Shown here: one piece after another, positions 6,101 to 28,072 of the stretch
Layout: each line of letters starts with the position of its first letter
Numbering within the stretch: the first letter of the stretch is position 1
NCBI RefSeq assembly: GCF_025770765.1
Contig: NZ_JANZKY010000005.1
Span: 62,001-126,000 of the forward strand
Length of the DNA stretch: 64,000 nucleotides
Source: Propionivibrio soli
GTDB taxonomy: Bacteria > Pseudomonadota > Gammaproteobacteria > Burkholderiales > Rhodocyclaceae
Direction: 5' to 3'
The notes under the pieces: model-generated
What the model saw: only the letters and a program-made list of their open reading frames with translations
Databases searched by the model: none
Told to the model about the DNA's origin: nothing
Position numbers and translations under genes: made by a program

Positions 6101-6121
6101 TCCCGGCACTACGCTACTACG

Positions 6122-7648: not shown

Positions 7649-7837
7649 GGCAGGCAGTCCTTGATCCCCGGTTTCATGGGGAGAAGTGGCAATTTATCCC
7701 GACAGTATAAGGCGGGCCCCGAAAGCTGCAAGCCGCGCACTGGCAGGTGCGAAAACGTCTTGAAACCCCCATTGAAAGTGGGCGGGAGAGGCCAATCTAT
7801 TACAATACTCAGGATCATCCCTGGATACATCGACGCC

Positions 7838-8659: not shown

Positions 8660-8665
8660 CTCGGC

Positions 8666-9184
8666 ATGGCCCGCAAGCCGATGATCTCGTTGATCGCCGC
8701 CGTTGCCGCCAACGGAGTCATCGGCGACGGCAACAAGCTGCTCTGGCACCTGCCGGAAGACATGCGCCACTTCCGCGAAACGACACGTGGGAAACCGGTG
8801 ATCATGGGGCGCAAGACGTGGGAGTCATTACCCGACTCGTTCCGGCCATTGCCAGGGCGGAAGAACATCGTGATCAGCCGGAACCGAAACTACGATGCAC
8901 CAGGCGCGACGCTGGCAAATTCGCTCGCAGAAGCGATTCGTCTCGCCGAAGATATGCAGGAAATCTTCATCATCGGCGGCGCTCAAATATATGCCGAGGC
9001 TCTAGCGCTTGCCGATCGTCTCTATCTCACCGAGATCGAAGCACCCTTTGCGGGCGACGCCAGCTTTCCCCAAGTCTCGCCCGCCGACTGGAACGAGATC
9101 GAGCGTCGACAGCCGGACACACGTACGACGCCCGCTTTCTCCTTTGCCGTCTATGAGCGACGGAACAAGCGCGCCGCCGCCTGA
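8666..9184 (+). CDS. folA: Dihydrofolate reductase
   Basis: This is a 172-residue NADPH-dependent enzyme that reduces dihydrofolate to tetrahydrofolate. The N-terminus MISLIAAVAANGVIGDGNKLLWHLPEDM contains the substrate-loop and the W-x-L-P-x-D motif with the catalytic Asp. The NADPH site appears as VIMGRKTWESLP, with GRKNIVISRN after it. The frame may begin at 8666 (MARKPMISL) or at the internal ATG at 8681; no clear ribosome site decides between them, and coupling to thyA is likely. Confidence 0.96.
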   Translation: MARKPMISLIAAVAANGVIGDGNKLLWHLPEDMRHFRETTRGKPVIMGRKTWESLPDSFRPLPGRKNIVISRNRNYDAPGATLANSLAEAIRLAEDMQEIFIIGGAQIYAEALALADRLYLTEIEAPFAGDASFPQVSPADWNEIERRQPDTRTTPAFSFAVYERRNKRAAA

Positions 9185-9199
9185 CCCTTCCCGGCCCCT

Positions 9200-11440
9200 T
9201 TAGCGCACGCAGTCGACGTAATACGTAGTCTTGCCGTCCACGACTTCCTTGACGAGCCCGTGGATGTCGGTTTCGAATCCCGGGAACTGCTCATTGAACA
9301 TGCGGGCGAATTTGAGGTAACGCACGATCGTCGCGTTGAAGCGCTCGCCGGGAATCAGCAGCGGTATGCCGGGAGGATACGGTGTCAGCAACGTGCTGGT
9401 GATGCGGCCTTCCAGTTCATCCAGCGGAACCCGGTCGATTTCACGGTGAGCCATTTTGGCGAACGCCTCCGTCGGCTTCATCGCCGGGACCATGTCCGAA
9501 AGGTACATCTCCGTCGTCAATCGTGCCACGTCGTTCACCGAATACACGCCATGGATCAAGTGGCACAGATCCTTCAGCCCGATGCGCTCGTAGCAGGGAT
9601 ACTTGGCGACGAATTGCGGGAGGATCCGCCACAGCGGCTGGTTCTTGTCGTAGTCATCCTTGAACTGCTGCAACTCGGTGACCATCGTGTTCCAGCGGCC
9701 TTTGGTGATGCCGATGGTAAACATGATGAAGAACGAGTACAGGCCGCACTTCTCGACAATGACACCGTGCTCAGCGAGGTATTTGGTGACGATGAATGCC
9801 GGAATGCCGTGGTCCGCAAAATCGCCGTCGAGGGCGAGTCCCGGTGTAATGACGGTCGCTTTGATCGGGTCGAGCATGTTGAAGCCGTCGGACAGTTGGC
9901 CGAAGCCGTGCCAGCGATCGCCGGGTTTGAGCATCCAAGACTCGCGCTCCTCGATCCCTTCCTCGGAGAGATCGTCGGGCCCCCAGACCTTGAACCACCA
10001 GTCGTTCTCGCCCCACTCCTCGTCCACCTTGCGCATCGCGCGGCGGAAATCGAGGGCTTCGGCGATCGACTCTTCGACGAGCGCTGTACCACCGGGCGCT
10101 TCCATCATCGCGGCGGCGACGTCGCAAGAAGCAATGATCGAGTACTGCGGCGACGTCGAGGTGTGCATCAGATACGCTTCGTTGAAAACGCTTCGGTCGA
10201 GTTCACGAACCTCCGAGTTCTGAACCAGGATCTGTGAGGCTTGCGAAAGACCGGCCAATAGTTTGTGCGTCGATTGAGTCGAAAAGACCATCGACTCCTT
10301 GCATCGCGGGCGATCGGCCCCGATCGCATGGTAATCGCCATAGAAGTCGTGAAACGCCGCATGCGGCAGCCAGGCCTCATCGAAGTGCAGGGTGTCGATC
10401 TTGCCGTCGAGCATTTCCTTGATTTCCTCGACGTTGTAGAGGATGCCGTCATAGGTGCTCTGCGTTATCGTCAGCACGCGTGGCTTGGCCTTCACGTCAC
10501 GTGCGAACGGGTGCGCAGCGATCTTCTTTTGGATGTTCTCCCAGCGAAATTCTTCCTTCGGGATCGGGCCGATGATCCCGAAGTGATTGCGCGTCGGCAT
10601 CAGGAACACGGGCACCGCGCCAGTCATGATGATCGAGTGGAGCACCGACTTGTGGCAGTTACGGTCGACGATAACCACGTCGCCCGGCGCCACCGTCGAG
10701 TGCCAGACGATCTTGTTCGACGTCGACGTCCCGTTGGTGACGAAGAACAGATGGTCTGCGTTGAAAATGCGCGCCGCATTACGCTCCGACGCGGCGACCG
10801 GACCGGTATGGTCGAGAAGTTGGCCAAGTTCCTCAACCGCATTGCATACGTCGGCGCGCAGCATGTTTTCGCCGAAGAACTGATGGAACATCTGGCCGAC
10901 CGGGCTCTTCAGGAAAGCCACGCCACCGGAGTGTCCGGGGCAGTGCCAGGAAAACGAACCGTCGGCAGCATAGTGGGTCAGCGCACTGAAAAATGGCGGC
11001 GGCACGCTCTTCAGGTAGGTTCTTGCCTCGCGAGCGACGTAGCGGCCGATAAACTCCGGCGTGTCCTCGAACATATGGATGAACCCATGCAGTTCGCGCA
11101 GCACGTCGTTCGGAATGTGCCGAGAAGTGCGGGTTTCACCGTGCAGGAAGATCGGGATATCGGTGTTGCGGAAGCGGATCTCGTTAACGAACGAGCGCAG
11201 GTCGGCGATCGTTTTCTCTGCCTCACCGGAGGTGAACTCCTCGTCGTCGATCGAGAGGATGAAAGCGGACGCCCGGCTTTGCTGCTGGGCGAAGGAGGTC
11301 AAATCGCCATAGCCGGTGACACCGAGGACCTCGAAGCCCTCTTTGCGGATCGCGTCGGCGAGTTTGCGGATACCGAGGCCCGACGCGTTTTCGGAACGGA
11401 AGTCCTCGTCGATAATGATGACCGGGAAGTTGAAGTGCAT
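9200..11440 (-). CDS. Orn/Lys/Arg decarboxylase, inducible acid-response type
   Basis: This is a pyridoxal-phosphate enzyme of the large class that includes AdiA, CadA/LdcI and SpeC/SpeF. I place the start at the ATG complementary to 11438-11440, behind a good AGGAG site, giving 746 residues. The wing domain covers about residues 1-130. The PLP lysine is near residue 393 in STHKLLAGLSQ, and the cofactor-binding DEAW lies about 38 residues earlier. Sequence alone does not tell whether the substrate is arginine, lysine or ornithine. Such enzymes consume protons and make polyamines or cadaverine/agmatine. No antiporter gene is adjacent, which is unusual for a dedicated acid-resistance system. 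Confidence 0.9.
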   Translation of the reverse strand: MHFNFPVIIIDEDFRSENASGLGIRKLADAIRKEGFEVLGVTGYGDLTSFAQQQSRASAFILSIDDEEFTSGEAEKTIADLRSFVNEIRFRNTDIPIFLHGETRTSRHIPNDVLRELHGFIHMFEDTPEFIGRYVAREARTYLKSVPPPFFSALTHYAADGSFSWHCPGHSGGVAFLKSPVGQMFHQFFGENMLRADVCNAVEELGQLLDHTGPVAASERNAARIFNADHLFFVTNGTSTSNKIVWHSTVAPGDVVIVDRNCHKSVLHSIIMTGAVPVFLMPTRNHFGIIGPIPKEEFRWENIQKKIAAHPFARDVKAKPRVLTITQSTYDGILYNVEEIKEMLDGKIDTLHFDEAWLPHAAFHDFYGDYHAIGADRPRCKESMVFSTQSTHKLLAGLSQASQILVQNSEVRELDRSVFNEAYLMHTSTSPQYSIIASCDVAAAMMEAPGGTALVEESIAEALDFRRAMRKVDEEWGENDWWFKVWGPDDLSEEGIEERESWMLKPGDRWHGFGQLSDGFNMLDPIKATVITPGLALDGDFADHGIPAFIVTKYLAEHGVIVEKCGLYSFFIMFTIGITKGRWNTMVTELQQFKDDYDKNQPLWRILPQFVAKYPCYERIGLKDLCHLIHGVYSVNDVARLTTEMYLSDMVPAMKPTEAFAKMAHREIDRVPLDELEGRITSTLLTPYPPGIPLLIPGERFNATIVRYLKFARMFNEQFPGFETDIHGLVKEVVDGKTTYYVDCVR

Positions 11441-11562
11441 GGGTACTCCTGCATTCTGAAGTGGCTCAATAGCCTGGAACGTCGGGGAAGCGGTCGAAGC
11501 AGCGCGTTCCGACAACCGGGAACCGCTGCTCATTTGCCTTTAACGGAAGGGATGGCGAAGGG

Positions 11563-12129
11563 TTACATTTTCGGCAAAGTGACGCCCACTTGCCCCTGAT
11601 ACTTGCCGCCGCGATCGCGGTAAGAAGTCTCGCACTCTTCGTCCGACTCGAAGAAGAGAACCTGCGCCACACCCTCGTTGGCGTAAATCTTCGCCGGCAG
11701 CGGTGTCGTGTTGGAGAACTCGAGCGTCACATAGCCTTCCCACTCGGGCTCGAACGGGGTGACGTTGACGATGATGCCACACCGCGCGTAGGTGCTCTTG
11801 CCAAGGCAGATGGTGAGGACGCTGCGCGGTATGCGGAAATACTCGACCGTGCGGGCCAGGGCGAACGAATTCGGCGGGATGATGCAGAAGTCGTTCGTCA
11901 CTTCGACGAAGGAATTGGGATCGAAGTTCTTCGGATCCACGATCGTCGAGTTGATGTTGGTGAACAACTTGAATTCGTTCGAGCAGCGAATGTCGTAACC
12001 GTAGCTCGACGTCCCGTACGAAACGATCCTCCGTCCATCGATCGAGCGCACCTGATTGGGCTCGAACGGCTCGATCATGCCGTGTTCCTCCGCCATGCGG
12101 CGGATCCACTTGTCGGATTTGATGGACAT
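11563..12129 (-). CDS. dcd: dCTP deaminase
   Basis: This is a 188-residue homotrimeric enzyme that deaminates dCTP to dUTP, the main source of dUMP for thymidylate synthase. Family hallmarks are the [25 protein letters not shown]-terminal region, the SSYGYDIR segment, and [15 protein letters not shown] leading to [10 protein letters not shown] with the catalytic Glu region ([19 protein letters not shown]). It lies between the decarboxylase and pflA on the same strand, with about 120 bp and 160 bp gaps. It functionally complements the thyA-folA pair 3 kb away. Confidence 0.96.
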
Positions 12130-12293
12130 CGCTGACTACCCGGGATCGGTTGAATAAAGGCCGCTATTTTACGGTTTCCGCAAACGGATGGGGGAAAAGC
12201 AAGCAGTGCGTCGAAGACTCGACGAACAGGGCAAGAAAAGCGGCCGTTCGGTACGCCAGGGGGGCCAAGGTCGGGGGCGGACCACGCTTCCGA

Positions 12294-13055
12294 TCACACG
12301 ACCGTCAGTCCCCGGGATGAAAAGGCCAGCCGCACGCGGTCGATGGATTCCTGTGTCGGTGGCTCGGTATCGCCCAACTGGTAGGACAGGCCAAGTTCTT
12401 TCCATTTGAACTCGCCCATTTTGTGGAAGGGAATCACCTCGACGCGCTCGACCGTCTTCAGCGAGGACACGAAATCAGCAAGCCCCTCGACGTTCGCGCG
12501 GTCGTCCGTCAAGCCGGGAACGAGCACGAAGCGTATCCACATCGTGCGGCCCATGCGCTCCAGGCGACGGGCGAAATCGAGTGTCGGCTGCAGGTCAACG
12601 CCGGTCACGCGCCGATAGGTTTCCGGATCGGACGATTTGATGTCGAGCAGGACGAGGTCCGTGTCGGCGAGCATCGCGTCGGTGGCTTTGGCCCCAAGAT
12701 AACCCGTCGTATCGATCGCCGTATGTACGCCCATCTCCTTACAACCGCGGAGGAGCGAAGCCACAAACTTTGGCTGCACCAACGGTTCCCCGCCGCTGAT
12801 CGTCACCCCGCCTTTGGCTCGCTGGAGAAACCCGGCAGTCTTCTCAATCTTGTCCAGCAGCAGGCCGGACGAGATCAAGCGGCCCCATTTCATCTTTAAA
12901 CTGTCGGGGTTGTGGCAATAGAGGCAGCGCAAGGGGCACCCCTGCGTAAAGATCACGAAGCGTACACCCGGGCCGTCTACCGTGCCCAGTGTTTCTATGG
13001 AATGGATATAGCCGACGACCGGCTCCGTTTTTCGCGGACGCGACTTGATCTTCAT
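12294..13055 (-). CDS. pflA: Pyruvate formate-lyase activating enzyme
   Basis: This is a radical-SAM enzyme of 253 residues that generates the glycyl radical on PflB. The [4Fe-4S]/SAM motif CxxxCxxC is C40-PLR-C44-LY-C47, preceded by the VDGPGVRFVIFTQG segment typical of PflA. GGEP follows in TISGGEPLVQP. The gene lies about 140 bp downstream of pflB on the same strand, as in enterobacteria. The enzyme needs reduced flavodoxin or ferredoxin and works only anaerobically. Confidence 0.96.
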   Translation of the reverse strand: MKIKSRPRKTEPVVGYIHSIETLGTVDGPGVRFVIFTQGCPLRCLYCHNPDSLKMKWGRLISSGLLLDKIEKTAGFLQRAKGGVTISGGEPLVQPKFVASLLRGCKEMGVHTAIDTTGYLGAKATDAMLADTDLVLLDIKSSDPETYRRVTGVDLQPTLDFARRLERMGRTMWIRFVLVPGLTDDRANVEGLADFVSSLKTVERVEVIPFHKMGEFKWKELGLSYQLGDTEPPTQESIDRVRLAFSSRGLTVV

Positions 13056-13192
13056 TGCAGCGACTCGAACTTAGGTGTAACGGTAGGACAAACCCGAAGC
13101 GGCCCGTACAGTGGCCGCCCCCGGTTCTCCTCAGGACACGGCCGCCAGCGCCTGCCGACAAGCGGGCAACCGGCGCTCCGTAGTCATCACGA

Positions 13193-15523
13193 TCACAGGC
13201 AGGACGCGGAAGCCAGTTTCTCGTGGAAGGTGCGGTTGATGACGTCTTGCTGCTGCTCGCGCGTCAGCTTGATGAAGTTGACGGCGTAACCGGACACGCG
13301 GACGGTCAGCTGCGGGTACTTCTCCGGATGGTCCATTGCGTCTTGGAGCGTCTCGCGGGTAAACACATTCACGTTGATGTGCTGACCACCCTCGCCGAAG
13401 TAGCCATCGAGCAGTCCGACCATGTTCCCCACGCGCTCCGCGGCGGTCTTGCCAAGCGCCTTCGGCACCACCGAGAAGGTATACGAGATGCCGTCCTGCG
13501 CATGCTCGTAGTCGATCTTGGCCACCGAGCGCATCGACGCCATGGCGCCCTTCATGTCGCGGCCATGCATCGGGTTGGCACCCGGAGCGAACGGTTCCCC
13601 GGCTTTGCGGCCGTCCGGGGTGTTGCCCGTCTTCTTGCCGTACACGACGTTCGAGGTGATAGTCAGCACCGACTGTGTATGCATTGCATCGCGATAGGTC
13701 GGATGTTGGCGCAACTTCTCCATGAAACTCTTGACCACAGTCGTCGCGATCTCGTCGACGTTGTCGTCGTCGTTGCCGAACATCGGAAATTCGCCGTCGA
13801 TCTGGTAATCGACCGCCAGCCCCGTCTCGTCCCGAATGACGTGCACCTTGGCGTACTTGATCGCCGAGAGTGAATCGGCGACGACCGACAAGCCGGCGAT
13901 GCCGCAGGCCATCGTGCGCAGGATGTGCATGTCGTGCAGCGCCATCTCGACGCGCTCGTAGGCGTAGCGGTCGTGCATGTAGTGGATGACGTTGAGCGCA
14001 TTGACGTACGTTCCGGCCAGCCAGTCAAGCACGTGGTCGAAGCGGGACATGACTTCGTCATACCTCAGCACGTTGGTGGTGATCGGTGCGAAGGGCGTTG
14101 TCACCTGCTTGCCGGTGATTTCGTCGCGCCCGCCGTTGATCGCGTACAGCAGAGCCTTCGCGAGGTTGACACGAGCACCGAAGAATTGCATCTGCTTGCC
14201 GGTGCGCATCGCCGATACGCAGCACGCGATCGAGTAGTCGTCGCCCCAATACTGGCGCATCAGATCGTCGCTCTCGTACTGGATCGAACTCGTCTCGATC
14301 GACTGCTTGGCGCAATAGTCCTTGAAGCCCTTGGGCAGCAATTGCGACCAGAGCACCGTCAGATTCGGCTCGGGTGCCGGGCCGAGCGTCGTCAGCGTAT
14401 GCAGGAAACGGAAACTGTTCTTGGTGACCAGCGGACGGCCGTCAATACCCACACCACCAATGGCCTCCGTCACCCAGGTCGGGTCGCCAGAGAACAGTGA
14501 GTTGTAATCATGCGTCCGCAGGAACCGCACCATACGGAGCTTGATGACGAGGTCGTCGATCAATTCCTGCGCATCAACTTCAGTCATCAACCCTTCGTTG
14601 ATGTCGCGCTCGACGTAGATGTCGAGGAAGGTGCTGACGCGGCCAAGAGACATGGCGGCGCCGTTCTGTTCCTTGATTGCGGCGAGGTAGCCGAAGTAGG
14701 TCCACTGCACGGCTTCCTGGGCATTGCGCGCCGGCTTCGAGATATCGAAACCGTAGCTCGCTGCCATTTCGCGGAGCTCTTCCAGCGCCATGATCTGGCG
14801 CGACAATTCTTCACGCAGCCGGATCGTCTCTTCCTTGATCACATCGAGGCGCAACTCGTGCTTCTGCGATTTCTTGTCCTCGACAAGGCGGTCGAGACCA
14901 TACAGCGCCACGCGACGGTAGTCGCCAATGATGCGACCACGGCCGTAGGCATCCGGCAGCCCGGTGATGATCGCCGAACTGCGCGCACGCAGCATGTCTT
15001 CGGTATACGCGTCGAATACGCCCTGGTTGTGCGTGCGGCGGTATTCGCTGAATACGCGTTCGATCTCTGGATCGATCTGGTAGCCGTATTCCTTGAGAGC
15101 CTGCGCCGCCATGCGGATGCCGCCGAACGGCATCATCGCGCGCTTCAAAGGTTTGTCGGTTTGAAGGCCGACAATCTTCTCGAGCTTCTTGTCGATGTAC
15201 CCCGGCGCGTGCGTGGCAATGTTGCCGACGACATGGGTATCGGCGTCCAGGACGCCGCCCTTGTCACGTTCGATCTTGTACAGTTCGAGCACCTGTTGCC
15301 AGACCTTCTGCGTGCGCTCGGTCGCGGAAGCCAGGAACGTGTCGTCGCCAAGGTAGGGCGTGTAGTTGCGATGGATGAAGTCACGGACGTTGATCTCCTT
15401 CGTCCACCGACCTGCCTCGAAACCTTCCCAAGCGTTCTCACGCACAGCCGCAGCTGGCGCTGCCGCTTCCGCCTGGCGCTTGGTTTCCGTGGTGGTCAGG
15501 GCCGCTTTCTTCACTCTGGCCAT
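13193..15523 (-). CDS. pflB: Formate acetyltransferase (pyruvate formate-lyase)
   Basis: This is a glycyl-radical enzyme that splits pyruvate with CoA into acetyl-CoA and formate. At 776 residues it is slightly longer than E. coli PflB, because of an alanine-rich N-terminal extension of about 30 residues. The catalytic cysteine pair is C434-C435 in [19 protein letters not shown]. The radical glycine is G745 in RVSGYAVNF, close to the C-terminus. A GGAGGA ribosome site precedes the ATG. The order focA-pflB-pflA on one strand gives formate transport, synthesis and enzyme activation together, so this organism should be able to ferment pyruvate without oxygen. Confidence 0.97.
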
Positions 15524-15595: not shown

Positions 15596-16441
15596 TCAGT
15601 AAGCTTCTGGCGCGTCGTTCTGCGCATACGCAACCGTCTGGCCCGCCAAGCCGGACTCGGTGCTGACCCGATCCGCCTCCGCGATCGACGGTCGCGATGT
15701 AAACCAGTAACCGGCCCCCATGAACAGGACACCGCTGGTCGCGTTACCCAGCGTCGACCACAACAGGTTGTGCAGCCAGCCGGCCAGATTGACCGTCGGA
15801 TCGCCGCCACCCAACACGCCAATGCTCAAGCCCGTCATGTTGGCAACACTGTGTTCGTAGCCGCTGGCAATGAAACCGAGCAGGCACCAGAAGATCAGGA
15901 TGCACTTCGCCGCGTCGCTCTTGGTGCGCGCCGTCATCCACACGGACAGACACACGAGCCAATTGCACAGCATGCCCCGGGCGAAAATCTGGAGAGCCGA
16001 CGCGTGCATCTTGTGGCCCACGATATCGTAGAGAACCGTTCCCCCAACCAGATTGCCGCCGCCGGAGACGAGAAAAATCGAGGTCACCAGCAGCGCCCCG
16101 GCGAGGTTGCCAACCCACGTGAGCGCGCACAGCCGGATCGAATCGCTCAGCTTCGTCTGTCCGCGCAGCCAGCCAAGCGACATGTACATGGTGTAACCGG
16201 TGAAGAGTTCCGAACCGGCAAAGATGACCAAGGTCAGCGAGATACCGAAACACGCGCCCATGACCAACCTGCGTATCGAGGGATCGACATCATTGCCCAG
16301 CGTGAAGATCAGGATGATCGCTAGCCCGACATACGCTCCGGCCATCATCGCGCCGACAAAAAAACCTGCGGGAGATTGTTTCTGGTACTTGACCTTTTTT
16401 GCCGCCAGCTCGGCAAACTTATCGACAGTTTCTAGATACAT
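15596..16441 (-). CDS. focA: Formate channel FocA (formate/nitrite transporter family)
   Basis: This is a pentameric inner-membrane channel for formate. I take the start at the ATG complementary to 16439-16441 (MYLETVDKFAELAAKK), giving 281 residues with six membrane segments; an upstream extension to 16510 is unlikely. FNT hallmarks include AGSELFTGYTMYM, the region of the first broken helix, and ARGMLCNWLVCLSVWM around the second. The GYEHSVANM segment carries the channel histidine. The gene heads the focA-pflB-pflA cluster. The C-terminal 30 residues are hydrophilic. Confidence 0.93.
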   Translation of the reverse strand: MYLETVDKFAELAAKKVKYQKQSPAGFFVGAMMAGAYVGLAIILIFTLGNDVDPSIRRLVMGACFGISLTLVIFAGSELFTGYTMYMSLGWLRGQTKLSDSIRLCALTWVGNLAGALLVTSIFLVSGGGNLVGGTVLYDIVGHKMHASALQIFARGMLCNWLVCLSVWMTARTKSDAAKCILIFWCLLGFIASGYEHSVANMTGLSIGVLGGGDPTVNLAGWLHNLLWSTLGNATSGVLFMGAGYWFTSRPSIAEADRVSTESGLAGQTVAYAQNDAPEAY

Positions 16442-16764
16442 GGATAACCCAATTGAACAAAAACCGGTCACGGCGGTCCATTGGCCGCTCGCAATAGCGA
16501 AAACAAACAAAACGCCACCGGGATTCGGGGAATCCAGACACGCTCAATGCGCGGAACGAAGCTCTTCGAGTGCGACAACCGGGAACATCGGCTCCAGAGA
16601 GGAGCAAACGAGCCGATGACGGCATCAAGCCGGGATGGCGAAAACCGCTAATTTTACTCGATATTGTGCTTATTCAGAAGAGGCGTGGGAGGCGCGAGGA
16701 GTCGCGGGCCAGATCGCACTCTTACGCGCCGACTTCCGACACCAAGGTTTTGTGGCGCCAACAC
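16442..16764. other. Non-coding interval upstream of focA
   Basis: This 323-bp stretch lies between the start of focA and the end of the cysteine-cluster gene, both on the minus strand. It should hold the promoter of the focA-pflB-pflA cluster. I see no conserved open frame, no clear rho-independent terminator and no canonical FNR/ANR site (TTGAT-N4-ATCAA). A GATG/CATC inverted repeat at 16615-16626 has the wrong spacing for FNR. On the minus strand a TAAAAT hexamer near 16650-16656 could serve as a -10 element, but this is weak. Confidence 0.4.
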
Positions 16765-20544: not shown

Positions 20545-20823
20545 ATGCTATCAGCCATTCGCCGCCGGCTCCGTTGGCCGGCATCGAACCCCTCGCTCCG
20601 TACCGTCGCCGGAGCGGCGACGGCTGCGTTGCTTGCGGCGGCGGCGATTGGTATGGCGGAAGTGCGCTTTCATTCGGTGCAAGTCTTCCACTCTGCCCCT
20701 GTTGCTTTGACCGCCATGCTGCTACTTGGCGCGGCCCTCAAAAGTCGCGTAGCGCGCGGAGCCACCCTGACACTCCGCCGCGCCGGCAACCGGCGCGCAA
20801 GCGACGTCGGCGAGGACGCCTGA
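20545..20823 (+). CDS. Small hypothetical membrane-type protein before the hyf cluster
   Basis: This is an open frame of 92 codons starting 7 bp after the metG stop and ending 65 bp before hyfB, on the same strand. It is Arg/Ala-rich, with two hydrophobic stretches (about residues 21-38 and 50-65) and an arginine-rich C-terminus. I recognise no family. Its placement suggests it could be a small accessory membrane protein of the hyf-like complex. However, it lacks a clear ribosome site and GC-rich DNA yields such frames by chance, so its reality is uncertain. Confidence 0.35.
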   Translation: MLSAIRRRLRWPASNPSLRTVAGAATAALLAAAAIGMAEVRFHSVQVFHSAPVALTAMLLLGAALKSRVARGATLTLRRAGNRRASDVGEDA

Positions 20824-20888: not shown

Positions 20889-22898
20889 ATGCGCGATCTT
20901 TCGACAATCAACGGCCTTCTCGCGGTCGCTACCGGTTGGTTGATCATCGGCGGGCTCGGTATTCTTTTCCCCCGCCGCTTCACGCTCATTAGCCGCGTAC
21001 TTTTCCCACTCGGGGCCGTCCTCGGTTTAGCGCTCGCCTGCCTCGCACTCACCGGGATTGCAGGTGAGGTGCAGACGATCATCCTGCCGCTCGGGCTTCC
21101 CGATCTGCCGTTCCATTTACGGCTCGACGGCCTCTCCGGCTTCTTCCTGCTGCTTCTCGGCGCCGCCTCCGCCGGCATCTCGACCTACGCTGCCGGGTAC
21201 TTCCGCAAAGGAGGCGGCACGGCGCCAGGGCTGCAGTGTCTGCTCTACCACGTATTCCTTGCCAGCATGGCGTTCGTGATGCTCGCCGACGACGGCTATG
21301 CTTTCATGGTCGCGTGGGAAACGATGGCGCTCACGTCGTTTTTTCTCGTGACGTCCGAACACCGGCATGCGGAAATCCGGCGCGCGGGTTACCTCTACCT
21401 TCTCGTCGCGCACGTCGGGGCCGTCGGCATCCTGCTCTCCTTCGGTGTCATGGCAGGCAGTGCTGGAGACTACACGTTCGACGCGATGCGCGAATTTTTC
21501 CACCATGGCGCCTGGCCGACGATCGCGTTTTTGCTCGCCGTCTTCGGGTTCGGAGCCAAGGCCGGCGTGCTGCCGCTGCACATCTGGCTACCGGAAGCCC
21601 ACCCGGCCGCGCCGTCGCCCGTATCGGCAATGATGAGCGGCGTCATGCTGAAGACGGCCATCTACGGACTGATGCGTGTGACCTTTGATCTGCTGCAGGC
21701 GCAACTGTGGTGGTGGGGATTGATTCTGCTCCTCTTCGGGCTCGCCTCCGCGATCTTCGGTGTCATCTTCTCCGCGATCCAGACCGACATGAAGCGCCTC
21801 CTCGCGTATTCGTCGATCGAGAACATCGGTCTCATCCTCGTGGGCTTTGGACTGGCAATCATCTTCAAATCGTTCCTCCTGCCTCATCTGGCTGCACTCG
21901 CGTTGACCGCGACGCTCTATCACTGTCTCAATCACGCCTTCTTCAAAAGCCTGCTTTTCCTGTGCACCGGTTCCGTGCTGCATGCCACGGGTGAGCGCAA
22001 TCTGGGCAAGCTTGGCGGACTGATCCACCGCATGCCGTGGGTAACTTGGTTGGCGTTGGCCGGCGTGCTCGCTTCGGCTGGCCTGCCGCCGCTCAACGGC
22101 TTCGTCTCCGAATGGCTGCTGTTGCAGAGCTTTCTGTTCACGTCGGGTTTGCCGCACGGGTATCTGAACATGCTCCTGCCTGTCGTCGCCGCGGCGTTGG
22201 CGCTGATCGCCGCCCTCGCTGGCTTCGCGATGGTGAAGTTCTTCGGCGTCGTTTTTCTAGGCCAACCGCGCGAAGAAAAGCTGGCGGCGGCGCACGACGC
22301 CGGTCGCCTCGAGCGACTCGGCCTGCTCTGGCTGGCCGTGGGATGCGTGGCCCTTGGGCTGCTGCCTAACCTGGTCATCATGATGCTCGATCCCGTGACG
22401 CGCCTACTTGTCCACAGCGGGCTCAGCGCGGCGGCGAGCAGCCACGGCTGGTGGCTGCTGGCACCGATTAGCGAAGACCGGGCCAGCTACAGTCCGGCAA
22501 TCTTCTTCGGCAGCATCGCCCTCTTCATGCCGTTGGTATTCTGGTTGGTGCGTCGCCGTTATCATGGTCGTATGAGCCGAGTTCCGGCCTGGGATTGCGG
22601 CTTCCCGCTGCAGACTAGCCGCATGCAGGACACGGCCGAAGGTTTCGGGCAACCGATCCGGCGCGTCTTCTCGCCGTTCTTCAAGCGCACGCGCGAGCAT
22701 CCTTCGGCATTCGACACACAACCGCGTTACCTGAGCATCGTCGAAGACCCGATTTGGTATTGGCTCTACGTGCCCATCACGCGCATTGTCGAATTCGGTA
22801 CGCGGCTGATCGCTTTCCTGCAAGAAGGCCGGATCGCGGTCTATCTGCTCTACAGCTTCGCGACGCTGATCATTCTCCTGGTTCTCACACGCGGATGA
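20889..22898 (+). CDS. hyfB: Hydrogenase-4 subunit B-like antiporter subunit (NuoL/M/N family)
   Basis: This is a 669-residue integral membrane protein with about 14-16 helices, homologous to Mrp-type antiporter subunits and NuoL/M/N of complex I. The residues essential for proton translocation in that family are present: Glu144 (in VAWETMALTSF), Lys224 (in FGAKAGVLPLHIWLPEAHPA) and Lys255 (in SGVMLKTAIYG). It therefore looks pump-competent. The C-terminal 130 residues, after SRVPAWDCGFP, are the extension typical of HyfB/HycC. It is the first large gene of a six-gene cluster; its stop overlaps the hyfC start (ATGA). See hyfG for why this complex is not expected to be a working hydrogenase. 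Confidence 0.92.
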   Translation: MRDLSTINGLLAVATGWLIIGGLGILFPRRFTLISRVLFPLGAVLGLALACLALTGIAGEVQTIILPLGLPDLPFHLRLDGLSGFFLLLLGAASAGISTYAAGYFRKGGGTAPGLQCLLYHVFLASMAFVMLADDGYAFMVAWETMALTSFFLVTSEHRHAEIRRAGYLYLLVAHVGAVGILLSFGVMAGSAGDYTFDAMREFFHHGAWPTIAFLLAVFGFGAKAGVLPLHIWLPEAHPAAPSPVSAMMSGVMLKTAIYGLMRVTFDLLQAQLWWWGLILLLFGLASAIFGVIFSAIQTDMKRLLAYSSIENIGLILVGFGLAIIFKSFLLPHLAALALTATLYHCLNHAFFKSLLFLCTGSVLHATGERNLGKLGGLIHRMPWVTWLALAGVLASAGLPPLNGFVSEWLLLQSFLFTSGLPHGYLNMLLPVVAAALALIAALAGFAMVKFFGVVFLGQPREEKLAAAHDAGRLERLGLLWLAVGCVALGLLPNLVIMMLDPVTRLLVHSGLSAAASSHGWWLLAPISEDRASYSPAIFFGSIALFMPLVFWLVRRRYHGRMSRVPAWDCGFPLQTSRMQDTAEGFGQPIRRVFSPFFKRTREHPSAFDTQPRYLSIVEDPIWYWLYVPITRIVEFGTRLIAFLQEGRIAVYLLYSFATLIILLVLTRG

Positions 22899-23848
22899 AC
22901 TTCTACGCCCTCTTTGCCCAACTGCTCGAGTTGATCGTCGCCCTGATCCTGGCACCGATGCTCACCGGTTGGGTCAACCAATGCCGGGCCTGGATGCAGA
23001 ACCGCTCCGCGCCGCCGCTGCTGCAAACCTACTACACGCTGAGCAAGCTGTTTCACAAGGACGTGCTGCTCGCGCACAACGCATCGACTCTGTTCCGTGC
23101 GGCACCGTACATCGTTTTCTCATGCATGGCGTTGGCATCGGCCATCGTCCCGACCTTGTCGACCGAGCTCATCTTCTCGCCGGCGGCGGACGCGATCGCG
23201 CTCGTCGGCTTGTTCGCCCTCGCCCGCATCTTCATTTCGCTGGCTGGCATGGACGTCGGCACGTCGTTCGGATCGCTCGGCTCGCGGCGCGAAATGTTCA
23301 TCGGCTTCCTCGCCGAACCGGCGTTGCTGATGGTGTTCTTCACCGCCTCGCTGATCTCGCACTCGACGTCGCTGGCAACCATCGTCGAGACGTTGGCGCA
23401 TAAAGAGTTCGCGATCTATCCGAGTCTGGCGTTTTCCGGCATCGCGTTCATGATGGTGTCGTTGGCCGAGAATGCGCGCGTGCCGATCGACAACCCGACG
23501 ACACACCTCGAATTGACGATGATCCATGAGGCGATGATTCTGGAATACTCAGGGCGGCATCTGGCGCTCATCGAATGGGCGTCGTGCCTGAAGCTCTTCG
23601 CCTATTCGTGCCTCGGCATCGCGCTATTCTTCCCCTTCGGGGTTGCCCAGGCCTTTGACCCCATCGCACTCACCTTGGCGAGCGCGATTCTCGTCGCCAA
23701 GCTCGCGCTCGGAGGCTTCACGCTTGCGCTGATCGAAACCCTGAGCGCCAAGATGCGCGTCTTCCGCGCGCCCGAGTTCCTCGGCACAGCTTTCCTGCTC
23801 GCGGTCCTTGCCATGCTCGTGCATCTTCTGTTGGAGGCCGGGCGATGA
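22895..23848 (+). CDS. hyfC: Hydrogenase-4 subunit C-like membrane subunit (NuoH/HycD family)
   Basis: This is a 317-residue membrane protein with about eight helices, equivalent to NuoH and HycD, which connect the peripheral arm to the ion-pumping subunits. The start overlaps the hyfB stop by four bases. Family marks include AGMDVGTSFGSLGSRREM and the charged loop ENARVPIDNPTTHLELTM, followed by the IHEAMILEYSG segment rich in conserved Glu. These acidic residues line the quinone/proton channel entry in complex I. It ends in an overlap with hyfE. Confidence 0.93.
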   Translation: MNFYALFAQLLELIVALILAPMLTGWVNQCRAWMQNRSAPPLLQTYYTLSKLFHKDVLLAHNASTLFRAAPYIVFSCMALASAIVPTLSTELIFSPAADAIALVGLFALARIFISLAGMDVGTSFGSLGSRREMFIGFLAEPALLMVFFTASLISHSTSLATIVETLAHKEFAIYPSLAFSGIAFMMVSLAENARVPIDNPTTHLELTMIHEAMILEYSGRHLALIEWASCLKLFAYSCLGIALFFPFGVAQAFDPIALTLASAILVAKLALGGFTLALIETLSAKMRVFRAPEFLGTAFLLAVLAMLVHLLLEAGR

Positions 23849-24525
23849 ACCTGTCGATCCTGCACGCCGTTCCGCTCGCTGGACAGGTGATCAACCTGTG
23901 TGCCGCGATCATGCTACTGCTCGGGTTTGCGATGCTCGCGCAGCGTCGTATCCTAACCTTGATCAATCTGTTCATGATGCAGGGCGCCGTGCTCGCGGTG
24001 TCCACGGCGATCGTCGCGTTGACGACGCAACAGCATCACCTGCTATGGTCGGCCGGACTCACGCTGATCCTCAAAGTCATCCTGCTGCCGTACATCCTGC
24101 ATCGGCTGATTCGCCGGCTTTCCGTGAAGTGGGACATTGAGACGCTGCTCAATATTCCGACGACGATGCTCGCCGGCATCGCACTCGTCGTGATCGCCTT
24201 CAACGTGGCGCAGCCGATCTCGCAGCTCTCCGGAACGATCATGCGCGCGACCATCGGAATCGCGCTGGCCTGCGTCCTGCTCGCCTTCCTGATGATGATC
24301 ACGCGCAGCAAGGCGGTGCCGCAGGTGATTGCTTTCCTGGCGATGGAAAACGGCCTCTTCTTCGCAGCAACCAGCGCGACCTACGGCATGCCGATGGTGG
24401 TCGAACTCGGCATCGCGCTCGATGTGCTGGTCGGCATGGTGATCTTCGGCGTGTTCTTCTTCCAGATCCGCGAGCAGTTCGACAGTCTCGATATCCGCCA
24501 CATGGAACGGTTCAAGGAACGGTAA
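23845..24525 (+). CDS. hyfE: Hydrogenase-4 subunit E-like membrane subunit
   Basis: This is a 226-residue protein with about six to seven membrane helices. It matches HyfE, whose C-terminal half resembles NuoK (helices with ENGLFFAA, a buried Glu in the AMENGLFF segment). The gene overlaps both neighbours (four bases with hyfC, one with hyfF), so the cluster is translated as a coupled unit. E. coli HyfE is 216 residues. Confidence 0.9.
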   Translation: MNLSILHAVPLAGQVINLCAAIMLLLGFAMLAQRRILTLINLFMMQGAVLAVSTAIVALTTQQHHLLWSAGLTLILKVILLPYILHRLIRRLSVKWDIETLLNIPTTMLAGIALVVIAFNVAQPISQLSGTIMRATIGIALACVLLAFLMMITRSKAVPQVIAFLAMENGLFFAATSATYGMPMVVELGIALDVLVGMVIFGVFFFQIREQFDSLDIRHMERFKER

Positions 24526-25973
24526 TGGAACTCGCCCTCGTCCTCGCCGTCCCCTTCGTCGCCTCACTTTTGCTGGCGATCGTCGGCCACCACCACATCG
24601 CCGACCGTCTCAATATCGTGAGCAGCCTGCTGACGCTCCTCGCCGCAGCACTGCTCACGATCCGCGTCATCGGTGAAGGTCCGATGGTCCTCTTCCAGGA
24701 ACAGTTCTTTGTCGACCCGCTCAATGTGTTCCTCATCGCGCTGACGGCGCTCGTTGGCTTCACCACCTCCGTCTTCTCGCGTCCGTACATGCGTGTGGAG
24801 CATCACCACGGGCGGCTCTCGGTGCCGCGCTTGCGCCTCTATCACAGTATGTTCCAGATGTTCATGTGCACCATGCTGGTGGCACTCGCCACCAACAACC
24901 TCGGCATCCTGTGGGTGGCAATGGAGGCGGCGACGCTGACCACGGTGCTGCTGGTCGCGCTCTACCGTACCCCGGCCAGCTTGGAGGCAGCGTGGAAGTA
25001 CTTCATCCTGTGCGGCGTCGGCATCGCGCAGGCGCTGTTCGGGACCATCCTGATCTACTTCGCGGCCGAACGCGTCCTCGGCCCTCTGGGTGGCGCGCTG
25101 CTCTGGACGCACCTGGACGTCGTCAAGATGTCGCTGGAGCCGACGGTACTCTCGCTGGCCTTCGTATTCCTGATCGTCGGCTACGGCACCAAGACCGGCC
25201 TCGTCCCGCTGCATAACTGGCTGCCCGACGCGCATGCCGAAGGGCCCACGCCGGTGTCGGCGGTCCTTTCCGGGTTGCTGCTCAACGTAGCGCTATACGC
25301 GGTGGTACGCTGCAAGGTACTCGTCGACGGCGCGCTGGAGAGCCACTTCGCCGGCAACCTGATGATGGGCTTCGGGCTCCTGACGGTGACCGTACCCGCG
25401 TTCTACCTCTCGCGGCAAAAGGACATCAAGCGTCTGTTTGGATTTTCGTCGATTGAGCACATGGGGCTGATCACCTTTGCATTCGGCATGGGCGGGCCAG
25501 TGGCGAGCTTCGCCGGACTGCTGCATATGACGGTGCATTCGCTCACCAAGTCGGCGATCTTCTTCGCCGTCGGACACGCGTCGCAGATGGCGGGAACGCA
25601 GATCATTGCCGACATCAAGGGACTACTCAAACGCTCGCCGACGATCGGCTGGGGACTGATGCTCGGCTCGCTCGCCATTCTCGGCATGCCGCCCTTCGGC
25701 GTGTTCACCAGCGAGTTCATGATCCTCACGACGGCGATCAAACACTACCCGTGGGCGACGCCCGTCTTGCTCACCTCGCTTGGTGTCGCTTTCGCCGCCA
25801 TGTTCGGCAAGGTGCAAGCCATGGCTTTCGGCGACCCGACGGTCCAGCCGCTGCCGCACAACCCGGCGTTGCTGCCGGTCTTCGTGCACCTCGGGCTGGT
25901 GCTCATGCTCGGCCTCTGGATTCCTCCCTACCTCGCCGAGTGGTACCGGCAGGCGGCACGCCTGATCGGATAG
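24525..25973 (+). CDS. hyfF: Hydrogenase-4 subunit F-like antiporter subunit (NuoL/M/N family)
   Basis: This is a 482-residue membrane protein, the second Mrp/NuoN-type subunit of the cluster. Glu134 (VAMEAATLTTV) and Lys223 (GTKTGLVPLHNWLPDAHAEGP) are the conserved proton-channel residues. Asn replaces the second Lys in SGLLLNVALYA, as it does in E. coli HyfF. The FGFSSIEHMGLI segment and the histidine helix after it are intact. With hyfB it gives the complex two antiporter-like modules; no HyfD homologue is present. Confidence 0.92.
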   Translation: MELALVLAVPFVASLLLAIVGHHHIADRLNIVSSLLTLLAAALLTIRVIGEGPMVLFQEQFFVDPLNVFLIALTALVGFTTSVFSRPYMRVEHHHGRLSVPRLRLYHSMFQMFMCTMLVALATNNLGILWVAMEAATLTTVLLVALYRTPASLEAAWKYFILCGVGIAQALFGTILIYFAAERVLGPLGGALLWTHLDVVKMSLEPTVLSLAFVFLIVGYGTKTGLVPLHNWLPDAHAEGPTPVSAVLSGLLLNVALYAVVRCKVLVDGALESHFAGNLMMGFGLLTVTVPAFYLSRQKDIKRLFGFSSIEHMGLITFAFGMGGPVASFAGLLHMTVHSLTKSAIFFAVGHASQMAGTQIIADIKGLLKRSPTIGWGLMLGSLAILGMPPFGVFTSEFMILTTAIKHYPWATPVLLTSLGVAFAAMFGKVQAMAFGDPTVQPLPHNPALLPVFVHLGLVLMLGLWIPPYLAEWYRQAARLIG

Positions 25974-25988
25974 CGACGGACGAAGCTC

Positions 25989-27536
25989 ATGCGATTCCTC
26001 GATCAACCCATCGAATTTGAGTCGTTGCCGGGACACGCGATACCCGTCTTCGCCGCACGTACGACAGCGGACGAACTCGCCGCCTTTTGCCACGCGGCAC
26101 ACGCGGCTGAGCGGCGCCTTGTTGCCCTGTGGGGCAGCGATGAGCGAGACCGCGAACCCGGTGCGGGCTATGCGCTGCACGTCGCATTCGATCTCGCCGA
26201 AGGTCTCGTCTGCCTGACGCTGCCGACGGCCCCGGACCAACCCGTGTTTCCCGACATGTCTCCGGCATTTCCCGCCGCCGACCGCATGCAACGCGCGGTG
26301 CGCGACACGATCGGCGCCACGTCCGAGGGCGGCGATCAGCGCGCTTGGCTGCGCCACGCCAATTGGCCGGAGGACTACTACCCCTTGCGGCGCGATACGC
26401 CTGACGCCCGTTTCGAAACCCGCAACGAGGACTACCCGTTCGTCCGCGTCGAAGGTGACGGCGTGCACGAAGTCGCGGTCGGCCCCATCCATGCCGGCAT
26501 CATCGAGCCCGGCCATTTCCGTTTCTCGGTGATGGGCGAGAACGTGCTCCGCCTCGAAGAGCGGCTCGGCTGGAAGCACAAAGGAATCGAACGCCGATTC
26601 GTCGGCATGGCCCTCGCCGAAGGTGCGCGCTTGGCGGGCCGCGTCTCCGGCGACTCGACGGTCGCCTACGCCTGGGCCTACAGCCAAGCCTGCGAGGCGA
26701 TCGCCGACGTAACGCCGCCGCCGCGAGCCCGCTGGTTGCGCGCGCTGCTGCTCGAACGCGAGCGCGTAGCCAATCACCTGGGCGACCTCGGCTACCTCGG
26801 CAACGACGTCGCGCTGGCGTTCGGCCTCGCTCAGTTTCTGAGACTCCGCGAAGACTGGCTACGTCTGAACGCAAAGTTGTTCGGGCATCGCCTCCTCATG
26901 GACCGTATCGTTCCCGGCGGCGTAGCCATCGATCTCGACGCGCAAGGCGCCGAAGCGATCATCGATCAGTGCCACGCCATAGAAGAGGACGTACGTCGGC
27001 TCAAATCGATTTACGACGAGCACGCCGGCCTGCAGGACCGCTTTCTCACCACCGGCCGGATTACGCCAGCACTCGCCCGCCGACTCGGCATCATCGGCCT
27101 CGCCGGGCGTGCGAGTGCCCAGCGCTGGGACCTGCGGTGCGAGCACCCGTGCGCGCCGTACGACGAGCTGAAGCCGAAAATGGCCATCGAGCGCAACGGC
27201 GACGTCGCGGCGCGGGCGCTCGTCCGCTTTGCCGAACTCGGCGAAGCATTCCGCCTCGTCCGCAAACTCATCGTCGATATGCCGGCCGGCGAACTCCGAC
27301 GCGATCTGCGCAGCGCGCCCGACAAGCGCGGCTTTGGCTGGGTCGAAGGCTGGCGAGGTGACGTGTTGGTTGCAATCGAAACGGGCGCCGACGGCAAGAT
27401 CCGCCGCGGTCACTGTCACGATCCATCCTGGCAGAACTGGGCGGCGCTCGAACACGCGGTGATCGACAACATCGTTCCCGACTTCCCGCTGATCAACAAG
27501 TCGTTCAACCTTTCCTACGCCGGACCGGACCTCTGA
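25989..27536 (+). CDS. hyfG: HyfG-like large subunit without the [NiFe] site (Ehr-type)
   Basis: This is a 515-residue soluble subunit fusing a NuoC-like domain (about 1-130) to a NuoD/HycE-like domain (about 145-515); the VGPIHAGIIEPGHFRFSV segment marks the second. In active group 4 hydrogenases nickel is held by CGIC near the middle and DPCxxC at the end. Here the first motif reads RVSGDS, with Ser220 and Ser223 in the cysteine positions (26646-26657). The second reads NLSYAG, with Ser509 and Gly512 (27513-27524), and the protein stops three residues later, so there is no peptide for a maturation protease. I conclude that it cannot bind the usual NiFe centre. This fits the 'energy-converting hydrogenase related' (Ehr) class. 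The substrate or electron partner is unknown. Confidence 0.9.
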   Translation: MRFLDQPIEFESLPGHAIPVFAARTTADELAAFCHAAHAAERRLVALWGSDERDREPGAGYALHVAFDLAEGLVCLTLPTAPDQPVFPDMSPAFPAADRMQRAVRDTIGATSEGGDQRAWLRHANWPEDYYPLRRDTPDARFETRNEDYPFVRVEGDGVHEVAVGPIHAGIIEPGHFRFSVMGENVLRLEERLGWKHKGIERRFVGMALAEGARLAGRVSGDSTVAYAWAYSQACEAIADVTPPPRARWLRALLLERERVANHLGDLGYLGNDVALAFGLAQFLRLREDWLRLNAKLFGHRLLMDRIVPGGVAIDLDAQGAEAIIDQCHAIEEDVRRLKSIYDEHAGLQDRFLTTGRITPALARRLGIIGLAGRASAQRWDLRCEHPCAPYDELKPKMAIERNGDVAARALVRFAELGEAFRLVRKLIVDMPAGELRRDLRSAPDKRGFGWVEGWRGDVLVAIETGADGKIRRGHCHDPSWQNWAALEHAVIDNIVPDFPLINKSFNLSYAGPDL

Positions 27537-27538
27537 CC

Positions 27539-28072
27539 ATGATCCCGCTGCTGCGCCAAATCCTCCGCGTCGGAATCGTCACTGAGCCGGCACCGCCAGC
27601 CGACGAAACGCTACGCCTGACGACACAGCGGCTTTCCGACGCCGTCGCCCGGCAGATCGGGCGAGCCCTCGTCATCCGCCACGTCGACGCCGGCTCGTGC
27701 AACGGCTGCGAACTCGAATTGCACGCCCTCGGCAACCCGTACTACAACCTCGAAGCGATCGGCATCAAATTCGCGGCCAGCCCGCGACACGCCGATCTGC
27801 TGCTCGTCACCGGCCCGGTCGCCAAGAACATGGAAGTCGGGCTCAAGCGCGCCTACGACGCCATGCCCGAGCCCAAGCTCGTTGTCGCCGTCGGCGACTG
27901 CGGGTGCACGGGCGGTATTTTTGGTGAGAGTTACGCGTCCTGCGGACGCGTTGCCAACGTCATTCCGGTGGACGTTGCGATTCCGGGGTGCCCCCCGACG
28001 CCCTTGCAATTGATGCAGGGCATCCTTGCGGCAATCGCCCCCGCGCAGGTCGAAAGCAACCCGGGAACCTAG
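27539..28072 (+). CDS. hyfI: HyfI/NuoB-like [4Fe-4S] small subunit
   Basis: This is a 177-residue soluble subunit equivalent to NuoB and HycG/HyfI. The four ligands of the N2-type proximal [4Fe-4S] cluster are kept: C54 and C57 (GSCNGCELE), C121 (GDCGCTGG) and C151 (PGCPPTP). Two further cysteines, C123 and C135, lie between. It starts 2 bp after the hyfG stop, so the two are coupled. The retained cluster next to a large subunit without nickel ligands suggests electron transfer to something other than H2. No two-cluster ferredoxin-like subunit (HyfA/HyfH) is encoded in the cluster. Confidence 0.93.
   Translation: MIPLLRQILRVGIVTEPAPPADETLRLTTQRLSDAVARQIGRALVIRHVDAGSCNGCELELHALGNPYYNLEAIGIKFAASPRHADLLLVTGPVAKNMEVGLKRAYDAMPEPKLVVAVGDCGCTGGIFGESYASCGRVANVIPVDVAIPGCPPTPLQLMQGILAAIAPAQVESNPGT

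Follow-up and report, generated by a model that had tools for sequence, protein, structure and literature searches.

A hydrogenase-4-like (Ehr) operon of Propionivibrio soli without nickel ligands and its possible part in inorganic-carbon acquisition

Introduction

What can a hydrogenase-like membrane complex do once its nickel site is gone? The question is raised by an intact six-gene operon, hyfB-C-E-F-G-I (20889-28072, + strand), in a 64,000-nucleotide stretch of DNA from Propionivibrio soli. This whole stretch (G000:C32:62001-126000, G000 being its own genome) is here called the window. The operon belongs to the energy-converting, or Ech, hydrogenase-related (Ehr) class, which is already known and whose function is unsettled. 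What is new is that in some relatives genes for SulP-type transporters and relatives of carbonic anhydrase stand beside Ehr; they are the first recurrent partner genes found here, and give the complex a testable role. Tentatively, with a rough probability of 0.4, we suggest that Ehr supports inorganic-carbon acquisition.

In the portions available to us of PMC6349859, PMC10432482, PMC7894505, PMC12342949 and PMC4378227, Ehr is described as hydrogenase-related and mostly as lacking nickel ligands. Its function is given as unknown in those of PMC12342949, PMC4378227 and PMC10432482, and elsewhere functions are proposed that are partly formate-related. This agrees with the initial annotation of the locus, which had called the reaction unsettled. 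According to the accessible text of PMC12342949, Ehr occurs in about half of Nitrospirales genomes, and it was present in 63 of the 398 genomes that we sampled.

Results

A large subunit without nickel and quinone sites

The large subunit HyfG (25989..27536, + strand, 515 aa) is a fused NuoC/NuoD-type protein, with matches to the 49 kDa (PF00346, 1e-30) and 30 kDa (PF00329, 6.8e-9) families of Pfam. Group 4 [NiFe] hydrogenases carry CxxC at both ends of this subunit; in the alignment HyfG has SGDS instead of CGxC (aa 220-223; 26646..26657, + strand) and NLSYAG instead of DPCxxC (aa 507-512; 27507..27524, + strand), the latter within a conserved tail, DFPLINKSFNLSYAGPDL. Both swaps had been named in the initial annotation, which placed the second at 27513-27524, an interval that covers SYAG only. 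HyfG has seven cysteines and no CxxC in the whole protein, which rules out nickel cysteines displaced elsewhere in it. The residues of the quinone head of complex I are replaced as well, with I172 at the His position and G221 at the Tyr position, and E173 falls at the position of MbhL E21 (alignment to 6cfw_L; I172-E173, 26502..26507, + strand). The accessible part of PMC7684303 gives the roles of this His and Tyr in complex I, and of E21 as the proton-reduction glutamate of MBH. Because the nickel motifs and both quinone-head residues are replaced, the complex is neither a [NiFe] hydrogenase, as had been concluded at the outset for the normal type, nor a canonical quinone reductase. Judged by alignment, the head has lost its nickel and quinone sites and has retained the hydrogenase-type glutamate, next to a small subunit with all four cluster cysteines.

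These replacements were followed in two homologue sets. Set 1 holds the loci found with the whole protein, the window included; seven outgroup rows were excluded, as were the fragments L030 and L031. Set 2 (A2) adds to the window 62 loci from the named collection of 80, the other 18 being fragments, near-duplicates and one frameshifted row; it was collected with two HyfG motifs (VGP[VI]HAG.. and NKSFN..), so that its conservation is partly a matter of selection. Set 1 has G221 and D222 in 54/54 rows, I172 and E173 in 52/52, N503, K504, S505, Y510, G512 and D514 in 53/53, and N507 in 52/53. In Set 2 the residues H168, I172, E173, H197, D222, H263, D266 and D273, together with N503, K504, S505, N507, Y510 and D514, are found in 63/63 rows each, G221 in 62/63 and G512 in 60/63; position 220 is more variable (S 52, C 6, A 4, V 1).

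The AlphaFold2 model of HyfG has a mean pLDDT of 86.0 and is weak at the expected interface of pocket and HyfI (pLDDT <50 for residues 149-198 and 509-515). Compared by fold with the PDB, it comes closest to HycE from the formate hydrogenlyase of E. coli (7z0s_E, TM-score 0.88) and then to E. coli NuoCD; HycE is also the best PDB match by sequence (1.2e-55).

A conserved iron-sulfur cluster and membrane arm

HyfI (27539..28072, + strand) is a NuoB/HycG-like subunit of the 20 kDa family (PF01058, 1.3e-31) with one predicted [4Fe-4S] cluster at C54, C57, C121 and C151. The ligands of the N2-type cluster named in the initial annotation are thus intact, and they are conserved: C54, C57 and C121 are present in 109/109 sequences and C151 in 108/109, with one gap. 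Since the cluster is invariant, redox chemistry is plausible. No Fer4 family was found by Pfam in the HyfI of the window at E 0.1, so that it is without a fused ferredoxin domain.

Four further genes, all on the + strand, encode the membrane arm. HyfB (20889..22898, 669 aa) is an antiporter-like subunit (PF00361, 3.9e-54; NF005086, 872.3 bits) with E144, K224, K255, K302, K353 and E408 by residue counts. HyfC (22895..23848) is a NuoH/HycD-like membrane anchor of the NADHdh family (PF00146, 1.4e-36), whose start is probably the ATG at 22895 that overlaps the hyfB stop. HyfE (23845..24525), with E168, E187 and K77 by the same counts, matches no Pfam family and is called a HyfE-type membrane subunit by NF008556 (1.2e-22, below cut-off). 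HyfF (24525..25973) is a second member of the antiporter family (NF005045, 847.7 bits) with E134, K158, K223, K302, K342 and E397. HyfB and HyfF pass the NCBIfam cut-offs as hydrogenase 4 subunits and HyfI that of one NuoB subfamily model, and none of HyfC, HyfE and HyfG reaches one. The antiporter residues that had been singled out are conserved, E144, K224 and K255 of HyfB in 96/96, 95/96 and 91/96 sequences and E134 and K223 of HyfF in 109/109 and 108/109, and ion pumping by this arm is predicted from them.

All six open reading frames (ORFs) are open, neighbours either overlap or are separated by no more than 15 bases, and Pfam supports HyfB, C, F, G and I, so that the six coupled genes that had been proposed stand. 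The membrane arm had also been called complete, which holds for HyfB, C, E and F with the remark that HyfA, HyfD and HyfH of E. coli Hyf were not found in the operon. With a group 4-like large subunit that lacks the four nickel cysteines, and Mrp/antiporter-like and NuoH-like subunits in one cluster, the assignment to Ehr made in the initial annotation is supported. A promoter scan returned 0 sites where shuffling predicts 1.5, and four terminator-like sites where it predicts 6.6. Between metG and hyfB lies a 92-aa ORF (20545-20823) with no NCBIfam match and none in the same-genus stretches at E 1e-8.

Elsewhere in G000 lie complex I genes (C3) and, on C7, a group 4 [NiFe] hydrogenase whose motifs read CSLC and DPCISC; the operon of the window is therefore distinct from these, and the cell can probably make a nickel enzyme as well. 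The C7 hydrogenase (L196, G000:C7:44000-62000, about 5980-13470) has a 1288-aa antiporter-like fusion and adjoins genes that, judged by eye, resemble those for an aldehyde:ferredoxin oxidoreductase, a MoaD-like protein, tungstate-type ABC parts and HypA.

Ancestry of Ehr

A quick tree of 36 rows, with SH-aLRT support only, long branches flagged and published Ehr accessions not included, places the window inside a clade of 21 Ehr rows that lack the nickel cysteines (support 97), where its HyfG groups with copies from Nitrospirota and Geobacter. Two loci from the named collection, labelled Propionivibrio, have HyfG identities of 80 and 82%. In one Geobacter locus (L134:2599-19263) hyfG and hyfI are separated by a 301-aa gene that matches no Pfam family, and further Ehr-like partial copies follow downstream. 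Next out is a three-row paralogue from the genus of the window, Ehr2, which joins Ehr with support 99. In Ehr2, as seen in L197:2165-9386, L199:7823-14899 and L201:4564-11787, Fer4 domains are fused to HyfI, each protein passing the cut-offs of at least two Fer4 models; the tail reads DLSYCGND in L197 and L201, near both of which lies an RHH-like gene, and a copy in G023 (L032) has CGDS.

Beyond Ehr2 the tree places a [NiFe]-type copy from L073 (support 89) and then L198 (99). The alignment and tree that had been called for at the outset accordingly yield a [NiFe]-type sequence as the closest outsider to the clade without nickel cysteines. This L073 copy (L073:1977-4425) precedes an Ehr operon, has RICGVC and ELCYSC in HyfG together with Ehr-like flanking motifs, and has a longer HyfI whose first part resembles HycF (4e-15; Fer4 below cut-off). 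It is possibly a living intermediate. We infer that Ehr derives from a ferredoxin-fed [NiFe] hydrogenase; in the simplest order, the nickel ligands would have been lost first and the ferredoxin module second.

SulP and carbonic anhydrase relatives beside Ehr

We examined 120 related loci (80 named, 40 unnamed), present across phyla, in which calling by codon usage gave 1591 genes, those of hyf included; uncalled genes escape the counts below. Upstream flanks were readable in 95 loci (hyfB and more than 400 bp upstream) and downstream flanks in 111 (more than 400 bp). A blastp search with four SulP queries among the called genes gave 17 matches. Sixteen of them are genes in 14/95 loci, all lying on the strand of hyfB and no more than 2.5 kb upstream of that gene; the seventeenth is a remnant in L147, slightly beyond 2.5 kb. 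No SulP gene was found within 2.5 kb downstream in the 111 readable loci, or on the opposite strand. In 11 loci (L083, L088, L095, L099, L128, L135, L136, L143, L145, L152 and L176) the gap to hyfB is 14-251 bp, the SulP genes of L095 and L135 being partial at contig ends, and in L084, L100 and L141 the two are separated by another gene. Pfam or a PF00916 search confirmed SulP in L083, L084, L088, L100, L143, L152 and L176. The hosts are Betaproteobacteria (including Thiobacillus and Rhodocyclaceae), Methylococcales, Methylothermaceae, a Muproteobacterium and one more distant family. As background, 41 Ehr genomes hold 98 SulP matches, some split, or about two per genome; G000 has four, none near hyf.

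Relatives of carbonic anhydrase occur in the same surroundings. The order in L100 is SulP, a gamma-carbonic-anhydrase-like gene and hyfB, with 5 bp between the last two, and L147 likewise has such a gene 5 bp before hyfB. Both proteins show hexapeptide repeats by Pfam, and the NCBIfam models that they match best are those for CcmM (8.2e-38 in L100, 4.5e-36 in L147) and carbonic anhydrase (6.5e-34 in L100, 2.1e-34 in L147), although no cut-off is reached; three histidines are spaced in what we take to be the manner of such enzymes. After hyfI, a CsoSCA-like gene lies on the same strand in L088 (1.6e-5) and on the opposite strand in L152 (2.5e-7), both over the Pfam cut-off, with L088 below that of NCBIfam. 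In two Nitrospirota metagenome-assembled genomes (L126, L138), 2-oxoacid:ferredoxin oxidoreductase genes lie about 1 kb downstream of Ehr, and a phosphoenolpyruvate carboxylase gene (tested by Pfam in L126, assigned by clustering in L138) lies upstream on the other strand, with genes between.

Other neighbours are regulators near hyfB: RHH ones in 8 loci, and XRE-type ones in 14 and XRE-cupin ones in 9, most of the XRE kinds touching or overlapping it. A spermine/spermidine-synthase-like gene stands on the same strand within 2.5 kb of Ehr in 11/120 loci (L072, L077, L078, L080, L089, L090, L092, L093, L101, L149 and L150), and DUF1275-like neighbours, named by eye, were seen in 5 loci. Among the nine same-genus stretches with hyfB, metG adjoins it in eight (one partial) and apbC in seven; we treat metG beside hyfB, in this genus and in other Betaproteobacteria, as inherited gene order and not as function. 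The commonest nameable theme among these rare neighbours is inorganic carbon.

Redox partners and PFL

The initial annotation had linked the complex to PFL and FocA. In the window, genes for PFL and an FNT channel do lie 4.4-7.7 kb upstream of hyfB, on the opposite strand. Neither was found by tblastn (E 1e-8) in seven same-genus stretches reaching at least 10 kb upstream of hyfB, the rest of these genomes not being searched (L191 and L194 reach too short upstream, and L195 holds only hyfG-hyfI). The channel beside PFL (15596-16510) fits the NirC model (287.9 bits) better than that of FocA (172.5 bits), both under cut-off. Among the 1591 genes of the 120 loci, no match at E 1e-5 was found for FdhF, FdnG, HycB, HyfA, NuoE, NuoG, PFL, FNT, HycI, HypA or HypB; a HycF/HyfH/NuoI-like sequence appeared only in the [NiFe]-type copy of L073, and a weak NuoF match in L185. 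The same partner set, with SulP and the two anhydrases added, found only PFL and FNT in the window itself, and no gene like HycB, HycF, HyfA, HyfH, HycI, HypA, HypB (query limited to its first part), NuoE, NuoF, NuoG or NuoI. We thus reject both the PFL/FocA partnership, which is not syntenic in the genus stretches and was not seen among the called genes of the 120 loci, and, for those called genes and the window, a formate dehydrogenase neighbour.

Co-occurrence with RuBisCO

Across 398 genomes of the phylum, G000 included, window-type Ehr was counted in 63: from 73 matches at E <= 1e-40 we removed ten at 7e-62 or weaker, of which the one checked groups with HycE in the tree. RuBisCO form I/II was counted in 97 genomes (matches at E <= 1e-100, to which five fragments from family f51 were added), with 20 weaker or other matches of 117 left out. 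It occurs in 39/63 genomes with Ehr vs 58/335 without (odds ratio 7.8; these statistics ignore kinship), and in 15/32 vs 25/302 once the 64 known f51 genomes are removed. DabA, in contrast, appears depleted (67 matches over cut-off; 3/63 with Ehr vs 64/335 without, p 0.003). G000 itself carries RuBisCO (C12:234404-235300, 398.4 bits) and nifH (C34:43391-44215), and no match to PF10070 of DabA was found in it. In the genus, window-type Ehr is present in 20/23 relatives and a strong RuBisCO match in 15/28 genomes, the window's own included.

Discussion

We propose that the operon encodes a working Ehr complex, in which HyfB, C, E and F would form an ion-translocating membrane arm and HyfG and HyfI a cytoplasmic head, whose single [4Fe-4S] cluster would lie next to a remodelled pocket free of metal. 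An event at pocket and cluster would be coupled to proton or sodium movement, and this coupling might either energise a SulP-type bicarbonate importer or take up the proton that a carbonic anhydrase sets free. Such proton uptake is pictured by analogy with DAB and NDH-1MS, where complex I-type subunits are linked to CO2 hydration. The proposal draws on the conserved pump, cluster and pocket, the upstream placement of SulP, the gamma-carbonic-anhydrase-like and CsoSCA-like genes, the co-occurrence with RuBisCO and its presence in G000, and the 2-oxoacid:ferredoxin oxidoreductase and phosphoenolpyruvate carboxylase genes of L126 and L138.

Several observations weigh against it. No SulP gene was found upstream of hyfB in 81/95 loci, or in the window, and the loci that have one are partly close relatives, four being Methylobacter/Methylococcales; carbonic anhydrase relatives stand beside Ehr in 4/120 loci only. 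SulP proteins also carry sulfate and dicarboxylates, and bicarbonate is a putative substrate at Ehr loci. Of the two SulP proteins tested on NCBIfam, that of L088 passes a sulfate-permease model (446.7, cut-off 380.45) and that of L143 best fits the dicarboxylate transporter DauA (below cut-off), both being far under the BicA cut-off. The invariant [4Fe-4S] cluster suggests redox chemistry, for which CO2 hydration has no need. Since nifH also co-occurs with Ehr (12/63 vs 28/335, p 0.02; two of 40 under the family cut-off), the RuBisCO link may mark versatile genomes, and the depletion of DabA is not significant outside f51 (p = 0.16). Finally, 9/21 genus genomes with Ehr have no strong RuBisCO match (three have a weaker one, and some are incomplete); because Ehr does not follow RuBisCO within the genus, it is not tied to RuBisCO as such. 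We still rank support of inorganic-carbon acquisition first. If true, a hydrogenase-descended pump would contribute to CO2 supply in many autotrophs and methanotrophs. The wider claim, by which many autotrophs and facultative autotrophs would accumulate CO2/bicarbonate through Ehr acting together with SulP and with carbonic anhydrases of the gamma, CsoSCA-like or unlinked kind, where others have DAB or NDH-1MS, is doubtful.

Second in rank, and on balance unlikely, is a redox pump running forward or backward, in which the [4Fe-4S] cluster would exchange electrons with a soluble low-potential carrier or a small pocket substrate, for example in ferredoxin reduction driven by the proton motive force for CO2 and N2 fixation. 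The invariant cluster cysteines, the Fer4 domains fused to HyfI in Ehr2, the HycF-like part of the L073 copy, the 2-oxoacid:ferredoxin oxidoreductase genes downstream of Ehr in L126 and L138 and the co-occurrence of nifH all speak for such a pump. However, window-type HyfI has no Fer4 domain, the searches described above found no HyfA, HyfH, HycB, HycF or NuoI-like gene in the window or, apart from the L073 copy, among the 1591 genes, and, with the quinone-head residues lost, a quinol donor is not obvious; such a pump would also leave the neighbouring SulP and carbonic anhydrase genes unexplained.

It is less likely again that Ehr works in the manner of MBS, the sulfane sulfur reductase of Pyrococcus, with a small substrate reduced directly by the proximal cluster inside a chamber free of metal and with this reduction linked to pumping. 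As described in the available portion of PMC7684303, MBS has likewise lost its nickel site, with 2/4 nickel cysteines retained, and the equivalents of Nqo4 H38/Y87; its proximal cluster, however, is held by three cysteines and an equivalent of MbhL E21 is absent, whereas Ehr has four cysteines with CxxC spacing and E173. By eye we recognised no recurrent sulfur gene in the neighbour clusters, in which no search for one was made.

Improbable, too, is a union of Ehr with a formate dehydrogenase in which formate oxidation would be coupled to pumping. This has been proposed for other phyla as FDH-Ehr (accessible part of PMC6349859), Ehr subunits are abundant in Geobacter with formate (accessible part of PMC7894505), and PFL lies near Ehr in the window. 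Against this, PFL and FNT are not syntenic in the genus and no FdhF- or FdnG-like gene was found in the window or, at E 1e-5, among the called genes of the 120 loci, a partner encoded elsewhere being possible. We give a slightly smaller chance to a general pump for pH or ion homeostasis with SulP as anion counter-flux, to which the SulP neighbours, the RHH regulators of 8 loci, the XRE or XRE-cupin regulators of 23 and the conserved pump would be suited; it leaves the conserved pocket and cluster and the carbonic anhydrase neighbours unexplained. A decayed hydrogenase or a sequencing error at the motif sites, which absent nickel ligands could also reflect, is already refuted by replacement motifs that are nearly invariant in both homologue sets and by an operon retained across phyla.

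Among known systems, the closest are the other Ehr complexes, which share the Hyf-type and antiporter-like subunits and the large subunit without nickel ligands. The operon of the window differs in being a six-gene form without a ferredoxin module, and inorganic-carbon neighbours are not mentioned in the parts of the Ehr literature available to us. E. coli HycE and Hyf provide the best match in the PDB by sequence and fold, and a similar gene set, but have the four nickel cysteines of which HyfG has none. Complex I (NuoCD, NuoB, NuoH) has a homologous head and membrane arm, with the quinone-head His and Tyr where HyfG has Ile and Gly. MBS, in which the nickel site is lost and the quinone-head residues are absent, is set apart by its three-cysteine proximal cluster with a shortened motif; HyfI has C54, C57, C121 and C151, and membership of the MBS group is rejected. 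In Acidithiobacillus, SulP with carbonic anhydrase is predicted to serve bicarbonate uptake, and the words "hydrogenase" and "hyf" are absent from the accessible text (PMC6458275); in the open-licence literature searched we found no link of Ehr to SulP or carbonic anhydrase, which is not proof of absence. DAB2 is a CO2-hydrating complex with a complex I-type subunit that is driven by the proton motive force (accessible part of PMC13144422). Ehr differs from DAB2 and NDH-1MS in that none of its six proteins belongs to a carbonic anhydrase family by Pfam, and G000 has no DabA match. The likeness would lie in the linking of carbonic anhydrase function to an antiporter subunit of complex I type, which is a feature of DAB2 and NDH-1MS.

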